DNA of 64,000 bases from Polyangium fumosum (GTDB lineage: Bacteria > Myxococcota_A > Polyangia > Polyangiales > Polyangiaceae), in assembly GCF_005144585.1 (NCBI RefSeq), contig NZ_SSMQ01000005.1:186001-250000 (forward strand), read 5' to 3'. Below are positions 60,270 through 61,140 of this stretch, piece by piece (position 1 is the first letter of the stretch; each line of letters starts with the position of its first letter). A model generated the notes under the pieces. The model did not search any database, was not told where the DNA came from, and saw nothing but the letters and a program-made list of their open reading frames with translations. The translations under genes and the position numbers were made by a program.

Positions 60270-60419
60270 GGGCCGGAATCCTACGCGCAACCGGGACGGA
60301 GCGAAAAGAGAATTTCGCAGTACGTTCCGGGCACACCTCAAAAAAGCGGGAATTCCCGCATTGCGGTCCACGCGCAGGCCGGGTATGAGCCAAAGAACGA
60401 CGGAAAAGGAGACCACGCC

Positions 60420-60875
60420 ATGACGAATGCAATGCCCGCCATGAACATGCCGATGCCGATGATGCCCTCGTCCATGCCCATGATGGGCTCACCCATGCAG
60501 GGTATGCCCATGATGAACATGATGCCCGGGATGCCCGGCATGATGCCCGGCATGATGGGCATGATGCCCAACATGATGCCCGGCATGATGGGCATGGGCA
60601 TGGGCATGATGCCCGGCATGATGAACATGATGCCCATGATGGGCATGATGCCCGGCATGATGGGTATGGGCATGATGCCCGTGACGTGTCGTATGACCTA
60701 TGAAATGACGAAGGACGGAATCACCTGCAAATTGACCCCGGGCGAGGGCATCTCGCTGGACATGATGAAAGAGCGCTGCGAGGCCATGGCCCGCATGATG
60801 TCCGCCGGCATGCCCATGATGATGATGTGCGGCGGGATGCCGATGATGATGTGTATGCCGAGCCCGACGAAGTAA
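60420..60875 (+). CDS. Extremely methionine-rich small protein with Cys-rich end
   Basis: A 151-residue protein, start ATG 60420 with GGAGACC upstream. By hand count 61 residues are Met. Residues 1-86 are repeats built from MMPG, MMG and MGM units; residues 87-151 form a folded-looking tail with VTCRMTYEMTKDGITCKLTP, KERCEAMARMM and MMMMCGGMPMMMCMP, five Cys in all. There is no signal peptide. Met-rich proteins elsewhere bind Cu(I)/Ag(I) or act as oxidant sinks; the added Cys support metal or redox roles. I recognise no family. It is a plain coding gene with RBS and stop, not noise. Confidence 0.75.
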   Translation: MTNAMPAMNMPMPMMPSSMPMMGSPMQGMPMMNMMPGMPGMMPGMMGMMPNMMPGMMGMGMGMMPGMMNMMPMMGMMPGMMGMGMMPVTCRMTYEMTKDGITCKLTPGEGISLDMMKERCEAMARMMSAGMPMMMMCGGMPMMMCMPSPTK

Positions 60876-60899: not shown

Positions 60900-61046
60900 T
60901 CACATCGCGGGCCAGACGGGCACCCAGAACCAGACGGGCACCCAGACGAGCAGGACCGGCGCCGACGTCGGCTTCTGGCGCTGCTCGTCTGCGCGCTTCC
61001 TTCGCACCTCGTCGAGATCGATCACACGAGCGCTGTGCTGGTTCAT
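60900..61046 (-). CDS. 48-residue small protein with hydrophobic Trp/Pro/Val tail
   Basis: ATG at 61046 follows GGAGGGT 6 nt upstream, a strong site. The 48 residues are a basic N-terminal half (MNQHSARVIDLDEVRRKRAD) and a C-terminus with a two-fold repeated VWVPVW element (LVWVPVWFWVPVWPAM), encoded by near-identical DNA repeats. This would insert in a membrane edge or bind a protein groove. Too short for a family call. A perfect palindrome lies 40 nt upstream, so it may be a regulated small gene. Confidence 0.55.
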   Translation of the reverse strand: MNQHSARVIDLDEVRRKRADEQRQKPTSAPVLLVWVPVWFWVPVWPAM

Positions 61047-61084
61047 CGGACGACCCTCCAACAAAGCGTGACGACGTCCAAGAT

Positions 61085-61101
61085 AACGGACGTCGTCCGT
61101 T
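61085..61101. promoter_or_regulatory. Perfect 17-bp palindrome, candidate operator
   Basis: AACGGACG, one central base, CGTCCGTT: eight perfectly paired bases on each side with no mismatch. It lies 39 bp upstream of the 48-residue gene on the minus strand and between that gene and the L7/L12-like fragment. Symmetry and size suit a TetR- or MarR-type dimer, but neither regulator is adjacent. Confidence 0.5.
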
Positions 61102-61140
61102 CGATCAAGTCCCACGGAAGATCTAGCCCCGAAGCCGAGC

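Follow-up and report, generated by a model that had tools for sequence, protein, structure and literature searches.

The methionine-rich (Met-rich) protein encoded at positions 60420..60875 (+) of the analyzed stretch of Polyangium fumosum DNA (64,000 nucleotides, hereafter the window) belongs, judging by profile and pattern searches, to an undescribed myxobacterial family, and we lean toward regarding it as a cytoplasmic methionine (sulfur) reserve that is controlled by a regulator of the XRE-cupin type and has a microprotein as its partner. This reading is favored over copper binding or oxidant buffering, because a protein that is 40% Met appears to stand under a sulfur regulator, and the predicted sign of its control is opposite to that of sulfur uptake.

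The open reading frame encodes 151 residues, including 61 Met and 5 Cys. A recount bears out the figure given in the initial annotation (61 of 151, about 40 percent), and the methionine repeats followed by a Cys-containing end that it described correspond to a repeat spanning residues 1–86 and a conserved Cys/Met domain spanning residues 87–151. Elsewhere among the window's called genes Met averages 1.93%, and finding at least 61 Met in 151 residues at that content has a binomial probability of about 10^-62. A ribosome-binding site can be read from the sequence (AAGGAG, 60406..60411, +), as can a promoter-like pair composed of a non-consensus −35-like element (TTGCGG, 60361..60366, +) and, after a 17-nt spacer, a −10-like element (TATGAG, 60384..60389, +). 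Inspection by eye shows no signal peptide in the window protein or in the family members that were read, and Rfam detects no known RNA or riboswitch near the gene at gathering score in 10 loci.

It should be noted that the same annotation had envisaged a spurious repeat frame, to be recognized by a lack of conservation. The gene is present in all five Polyangium congeners of the sample and is part of a wider family; all 16 reading frames checked, one of which starts with GTG, are free of internal stops. Among the six Polyangium copies omega ranges from 0.11 to 0.29 in the C-terminal domain and from 0.11 to 0.44 in the repeat, i.e., selection among these copies is purifying. An origin of the frame from a GC-rich CATGATG DNA repeat, for which one could cite a shadow frame opening on the minus strand (60338–60673), was dropped in view of the congener copies, the wider family and the omega values; conservation of the domain across myxobacterial classes, together with purifying selection, the ribosome site and a conserved promoter, leaves this explanation a negligible probability. 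The shadow frame is Met/Ile/Pro-rich and open in several congeners too, as a by-product of the CATGATG repeats.

The repeat (60420..60677, +; 44 Met), delimited by composition, is predicted to be disordered: in the AlphaFold2 model residues 4–84 have pLDDT below 50, and block means over residues 91–140 are 71–87. Its alphabet in the window protein consists of A, G, M, N, P, Q, S and T only. In each of the 16 members checked, a repeat of 30 to 180 residues with 47–57% Met precedes the same Cys/Met domain; the other repeat residues are of few kinds, mainly G, P, N, Q, A, S and T. Whole-protein Met content in these members is very high (38–49%), and His is absent from 15 of them. The longest member (L041, 7455–8252) has 265 residues, 129 Met and 22 MMPQMMG units, which suggests a recent repeat expansion.

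The conserved domain (60678..60872, +), about 60 residues long, occupies the last place in all 12 aligned members and has invariant Met, Glu, Pro, Gly, Lys and Cys columns. Across six Cys columns of an ungapped 12-row set, Met fills 7 of the 16 cells not occupied by Cys. AlphaFold2 predicts a beta-beta-alpha-beta-beta order for this region (strands 90–97 and 100–107, helix 113–128, strands 133–137 and 140–144), which is retained when the domain is modeled alone. Foldseek returned no match at E ≤ 0.001 for either model, and VIA-align gave no confident fold match (best Z 3.2, rmsd 3.4 with 45 aligned residues, for the full model; best Z 2.6, rmsd 3.8 with 45 aligned residues, for the domain). 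The best E-value in a sequence search of the PDB was only 0.066.

The whole protein has no match in Pfam and NCBIfam at E ≤ 1, and 12 members have none in PHROGs at E ≤ 0.1, so the claim of the initial annotation that the protein resembles no recognized family stands; the single Pfam match of the C-terminal fragment, to GATase_3 (E 0.38), lies below the cut-off of that model. Of 317 genomes from the class, 25 have the family by a profile of the C-terminal domain, as have 9 of 377 genomes sampled across the phylum. Strict peptide patterns, which may undercount the family, find 11 loci in a collection of 84,980 species, all of them myxobacterial (Polyangium, Minicystis, Sorangium with two paralogues, Pyxidicoccus and Hyalangium). 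The window's own genome (G000) is 12.98 Mb in size. One Sorangium-like genome contains a third Met-rich frame (L016, G023:C3, 1495–1806) with MMPNMMGG and MMPHMM repeats, which includes His and has no Cys/Met domain. Weak matches of 20–30% identity inside a long frame of 637–1252 residues (L002, L003, L013–L015 and L017–L019) occur in five of the six Polyangium genomes and are probably compositional.

The genes around family members were surveyed at 27 loci (the window and 26 others), with genes called by a simple script in stretches of about 8 kb per side unless the contig ended, the right end of the window being 3.1 kb away; the seven neighbors in the window were scanned with Pfam, and those at the other loci were clustered and read by eye. 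A gene for an XRE-cupin protein lies within the stretch at 14 loci; at 12 of these it adjoins the Met-rich gene, and at two it is about 3 and 6 kb away. The adjoining cases comprise seven in Sorangium (both paralogues), two in Sandaracinus-like genomes, and one each in Pyxidicoccus, Hyalangium and Minicystis; in 11 of the 12 the two genes are convergent. Thus, outside Polyangium the XRE-cupin gene is the next gene at 12 of 21 loci, mostly together with a gene for a Trp-rich microprotein. It was not seen at 13 of the 27 loci (six of Polyangium, four of the genus designated g5 and three others). The regulator of locus L045 consists of HTH_3 (PF01381, E 3.5e-16) and Cupin_2 (PF07883, E 9e-12) domains, and that of L117 likewise has both. 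XRE-cupin proteins are also found in genomes without a Met-rich gene. In one such genome, in which no Met-rich gene was found (G073, L117, 5942–9712), behind the regulator gene come a DUF2325-like gene and genes for solute-binding and transporter proteins of the sulfate type, an arrangement that we read as independent support for a sulfur role of the XRE-cupin proteins.

The microproteins are 43–66 residues long, with VIDLxxxRxxR near the start and a Trp-rich V/W/P segment at the other end. The microprotein of the window, called as a frame and matched by the profile, has 48 residues (VIDLDEVRRKR ... VWVPVWFWVPVWP) and is encoded by a convergent partner gene (60900..61046, −), for which a −35-like TTGATC (61103..61108, −) and a −10-like TATCTT (61080..61085, −) can be read by eye. 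At 11 of 12 microprotein loci examined outside Polyangium, the 3-kb stretch also contains an XRE-cupin gene. The Polyangium XRE-cupin gene is on another contig; our guess that its locus would also carry a microprotein gene proved wrong, as none is beside it.

The link between the microprotein and the Met-rich gene extends beyond physical proximity. When the microprotein profile was run on the 317 genomes and the best 20 candidates per genome were scored, 32 genomes had a match at E ≤ 0.01 and 22 at E ≤ 1e-6, the next best value being 1e-3. With the same scoring of the best 20 candidates, matches at E ≤ 1e-6 occur in 22 of the 25 genomes that have the Met-rich gene versus none of the 292 others (12 of 15 versus 0 of 292 when the genomes used to train the profile are left out) and in 8 of 10 genera versus 0 of 141; the three genomes with the Met-rich gene but no such match are G175 and two incomplete ones, G581 and G541. 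Fisher's test on these best-20 counts, uncorrected for kinship, gives 5e-31 by genomes and 8e-12 by genera. The two genes are unlinked in six genomes, being about 42 kb apart in G575, about 36 kb apart in G576, and on different contigs in G579, G110, G478 and G482.

The promoters of these genes share a palindromic element. A search of 593 kb (both strands of 45 stretches, a few of them overlapping) finds the string CGGAGGAAAR ten times, and nine of these occurrences are located 80–114 nt upstream of a Met-rich gene. With a matrix built from the nine sites, eight more Met-rich genes prove to be preceded by a site of this form; six of these eight sites score above 12, as do six places unrelated to Met-rich genes. 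The dyad TCCG-N6-CGGA, exact or altered at one or two positions, is contained in all 17 Met-rich sites. The site is present at 17 of the 28 Met-rich loci that have upstream sequence; the 11 loci without it are the six of Polyangium, including the window, Minicystis, G110, G576 and two copies of Sorangium paralogue 1, which have only a variant. The dyad also occurs in 13 of 15 promoters of the microprotein–regulator genes examined outside Polyangium. It is absent from both Sandaracinus-like microprotein promoters, three XRE promoters of Sorangium paralogue 1 and two Polyangium XRE promoters. From this shared occurrence, TCCG-N6-CGGA is likely to be the operator of the XRE-cupin regulator, which would itself be the protein that binds the dyad.

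The position of the dyad differs between two kinds of promoter. At 29 of 33 auto- and target promoters, oriented by hand, it overlaps the −35/−10 span of the best promoter, a count helped by seven promoters in which the dyad's own TATA was read as the −10; in 15 of the 33 promoters the dyad is centered at −17, typically with TTGACA. A protein bound over this span would block polymerase, i.e., the dyad is in a repressor position, and the spacers, most of which measure 17 nt, argue against action in the manner of MerR. In all 17 Met-rich promoters that have the site (which are not independent, as they include four of Sorangium paralogue 2 and two Sandaracinus-like ones), the −35 begins 35–36 nt after the dyad center and the −10 is at 57–60 nt, versus a mean of 1.31 of 17, and a maximum of 6, in 200 shuffles. 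The Met-rich dyad is thus centered near −71, before a weak −35, and a center near −71 is the classical place of a class I activator. The extended form TCCGN6CRGAGGAAA has 18 matches in 20 genomes, 11 of them at Met-rich genes; since the 7 found elsewhere correspond to the control level (6), this form apparently has no target other than the Met-rich gene. Judging by position, the regulator would be an activator at the Met-rich gene and a repressor at sulfur genes.

The genes located behind the dyad indicate the likely physiological context. The pattern TCCGYTNNARCGGA has 58 forward matches in 13 genomes versus 47 for the reversed control; most of its matches are therefore chance. Attention was given to the TATA-centered subset, which was picked after the match list had been seen: all 18 such sites that were not the regulator's own were examined (16 stretches, with one copy of repeated cases scanned with profiles and the other copies joined by BLAST), and sulfur-related genes lie behind 12 of the 18. 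They comprise cysH-cysG-tetrapyrrole methylase-cysD (2), rhodanese, rhodanese-ThiF (3), an mtnB-ARD cluster behind a RelA/SpoT-like gene, cysE at a distance of 0.8 kb, DUF2325 with a sulfate transporter, TauE, ArsR-metH/sulfatase, and sulfatase. Of the other six sites, four are near carbonic anhydrase (2), DUF2292 with a porin, and an amidase, and two have no clear target; no sulfur gene was seen at one additional site (L187). Sites of the form TCCGYTATARCGGA precede cysH-cysG-cysD, sulfate transporters, metH, mtnB and cysK, and likewise genes for a cystathionine-gamma-synthase-type enzyme, sulfatase and rhodanese. In 11 more genomes TCCGYTWWARCGGA has 14 matches versus 2 in the control; the 14 include matches before a sulfate-binding-protein gene (5), a DUF2325-type gene (5), cysK (1) and a gene for a cystathionine-gamma-synthase-type enzyme (1), these targets being identified by profiles for some copies and recognized by sequence for the rest; one match is inside a coding region and one has no assigned target. 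Four of the 11 genomes (G036, G425, G175 and G073) have no match. None of the operator targets scanned is a copper or silver protein. Both the co-occurrence and the operator held in common suggest that the family is tied to sulfur assimilation.

Two components recur in this context. A protein with the Pfam DUF2325 domain is encoded at several sulfur operators (L076, 7464–7754; L178, 2894–3217; L202, 3202–3570); its gene heads a sulfate transporter operon and also stands beside a Met-rich gene, and the protein is likely a further part of the sulfur system. In Minicystis (L177, 5920–9000), the operator is separated from two genes of methionine salvage, mtnB and ARD, by a RelA/SpoT-like gene.

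For the window copy, the link to sulfur is indirect. The activator site is absent from its promoter, which has another palindrome, GCGGGAATTCCCGC (60346..60359), centered about −43.5 from the inferred transcription start and constituting a candidate Polyangium operator. The corresponding pattern GCGGGAWTTCCCGC has eight other sites, spread over four genomes; the genes in which they fall, or to which they are close, appear unrelated on inspection by eye, so the pattern gives no clue to a regulon. Since its own promoter has this other palindrome, the sulfur link of the window gene would follow from orthology, from the partner microprotein and from perfect operators at other places in its genome, namely before sbp-cysT (L204) and before the DUF2325 gene (L202). 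The three Polyangium microprotein promoters examined contain TCCGTTATSTTGGA, one mismatch away from the dyad; in the window a sequence with one mismatch from TCCG-N6-CGGA, TCCGTTATCTTGGA (61077..61090, −), overlaps the −10 of the microprotein gene.

The following mechanism would account for these features. The XRE-cupin regulator would bind TCCG-N6-CGGA sites and, when sulfur is plentiful, block the promoters that drive sulfur uptake and the genes for cysteine and methionine, together with that of its own operon, which includes the microprotein; from the site near −71 it would at the same time turn on the Met-rich gene. Surplus methionine would then be deposited in the polymer-like protein, the folded Cys/Met domain of which may be a handle for assembly or controlled breakdown. 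When sulfur is short, repression would end, the Met-rich gene would fall silent and the microprotein would be made, perhaps binding the Met-rich chains and promoting their release or proteolysis. The family and its conservation, the co-occurrence, the common dyad with its two promoter geometries and the sulfur genes behind it come directly from the computation; the identity of the binding protein, the sign of regulation, the reserve function and the part assigned to the microprotein are suggested by these results, and the microprotein as a mobilizing partner is a conjecture, prompted by its predicted appearance in scarcity and by its being found only in genomes that have the Met-rich gene. For the complete three-part bank, in which a methionine polymer is combined with a dual regulator that uses one dyad at two positions and with a microprotein that releases the store through Met–Trp contacts, our confidence is tentative and on the low side.

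Two alternatives derive from the chemistry of methionine. The initial annotation, correct with respect to the family, had proposed Cu(I)/Ag(I) binding or an oxidant-related function, and in this respect the sulfur operator and the co-occurrence point elsewhere. A cytosolic Cu(I)/Ag(I) sponge, in which MxxM/MGM thioethers and the Cys/Met domain chelate the metal and the Trp residues of the microprotein cap it as Trp44 does in CusF, is chemically possible, and the exchange of Met for Cys in the Cys columns is what such a sponge might be expected to show. Met and His are ligands in CusF, with Trp44 capping the metal (PMC9302797), and SilE is disordered without metal and able to take up to eight Ag+ through His and Met (PMC5008109). 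However, nearly all members checked are devoid of His; no signal peptide is seen by eye, whereas SilE, CusF and CopM are periplasmic; the operator points to sulfur, and neither the scanned operator targets nor the neighbors in the window include a copper or silver protein, the one copper name among the latter being a beta-helix protein that matches NosD with 16 bits, below the cut-off of 23.6. We consider the sponge unlikely, albeit the most probable of the rivals. Next in rank, and improbable, is a sacrificial oxidant sink, in which Met would be converted to the sulfoxide and recycled by Msr enzymes, as in the hypochlorite defense that involves MrpX. The very high Met content agrees with such a sink, as does the existence of MrpX and BcrX, which are small Met-rich scavengers (PMC8315932). 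MrpX is a periplasmic protein whose gene accompanies those of a methionine sulfoxide reductase and a sigma factor; Pfam finds no methionine-sulfoxide-repair or sigma-factor protein among the seven neighbors in the window. Moreover, the MXKDX pentapeptide occurs at most once per protein, and the regulon looks like one of sulfur acquisition.

Two further alternatives are based on the form of the protein. It might be a methionine gauge: translation of 43–129 Met codons requires plentiful Met-tRNA, and the domain, being made last, would signal sufficiency to the XRE-cupin regulator or the microprotein. This fits with the terminal position of the domain in all aligned members, with predicted membership in the sulfur regulon and with the tight pairing with the regulator–microprotein operon; the variation of repeat length among relatives, from 30 to 180 residues, is better suited to bulk storage, and cis attenuation of the regulator is unlikely because the genes converge in 11 of the 12 loci where they adjoin. 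We assign the gauge a low probability, below that of the oxidant sink. A redox- or sulfur-responsive condensate scaffold is a distinctly remote prospect. Met-rich chains would in this case self-associate as in yeast ataxin-2, with the microprotein as a modulator; the repeat is predicted to be disordered, and droplets of ataxin-2 and TDP-43, both of which contain Met-rich low-complexity regions, melt upon Met oxidation (PMC8394241). Nevertheless, no RNA-binding or client domain is seen, and the regulon alone does not demand a condensate. Condensate formation could also coexist with the reserve function.

The nearest functional analogues of a methionine reserve are the maize delta-zeins (10 and 18 kDa), to which no homology is claimed. 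These are Met-rich, Lys-poor seed storage proteins that act as a Met sink, the 10-kDa zein containing 22.48% Met and 0% Lys (PMC3420316). Delta-zein is a protein of the plant seed, whereas the myxobacterial family, with 38–49% Met, a separate Cys/Met domain and an XRE-cupin regulon, is assigned to the bacterial cytoplasm. The nearest bacterial Met-rich protein is MrpX, which resembles the family in being a small Met-rich repeat protein. BcrX is described as an MXKDX repeat protein (PMC8315932); in the myxobacterial family MXKDX is present once in 13 of 16 members and absent from three, i.e., it forms no repeats, and Pfam finds no MsrP/MsrQ or ECF sigma/anti-sigma genes among the seven window neighbors. 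SilE and CusF, the nearest metal-binding proteins, share with the family the use of Met as one of the soft-metal ligands and, in SilE, disorder without metal. SilE/PcoE, CusF and CopM are periplasmic proteins of metal-resistance systems that have both His and Met, unlike the family described here, which is almost devoid of His and belongs, as far as can be predicted, to a sulfur regulon. PMC4623255 and PMC4335983 were consulted as well. Ataxin-2/Pbp1, Pab1 and TDP-43 also have Met-rich low-complexity regions, but these are located within RNA-binding proteins. The Met-rich family is thus filed under none of delta-zein, MrpX and SilE/CusF.

As regards the regulator, the closest known system is probably SutR (YdcN) of Escherichia coli, a small HTH regulator, which carries a cupin domain; the myxobacterial regulator has HTH_3 and Cupin_2 and, unlike SutR, is linked with two further proteins, one of them the Trp-rich microprotein and the other Met-rich. 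SutR is named for sulfur utilization, and its site is palindromic (PMC8464067). NCBIfam gives generic matches below cut-off for the myxobacterial regulator, with no model named SutR among them.

Known bacterial reserves store carbon, phosphorus and nitrogen (PHA, polyphosphate, cyanophycin), as well as elemental sulfur. No bacterial storage protein for methionine or sulfur was found among the open-licence papers listed; the matches dealt with plants or with unrelated subjects, apart from a review on stress by hypochlorous acid. If the interpretation of the Met-rich protein as a methionine reserve is true, the family would represent a new kind of nutrient reserve, extremely rich in methionine (up to 49%), with its own regulator and a candidate mobilizing partner. 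For sulfur control in myxobacteria, an operator and a regulon would become available for testing, and the protein may also be useful as a compact, naturally occurring Met-rich scaffold in metal, redox or nutrition work.
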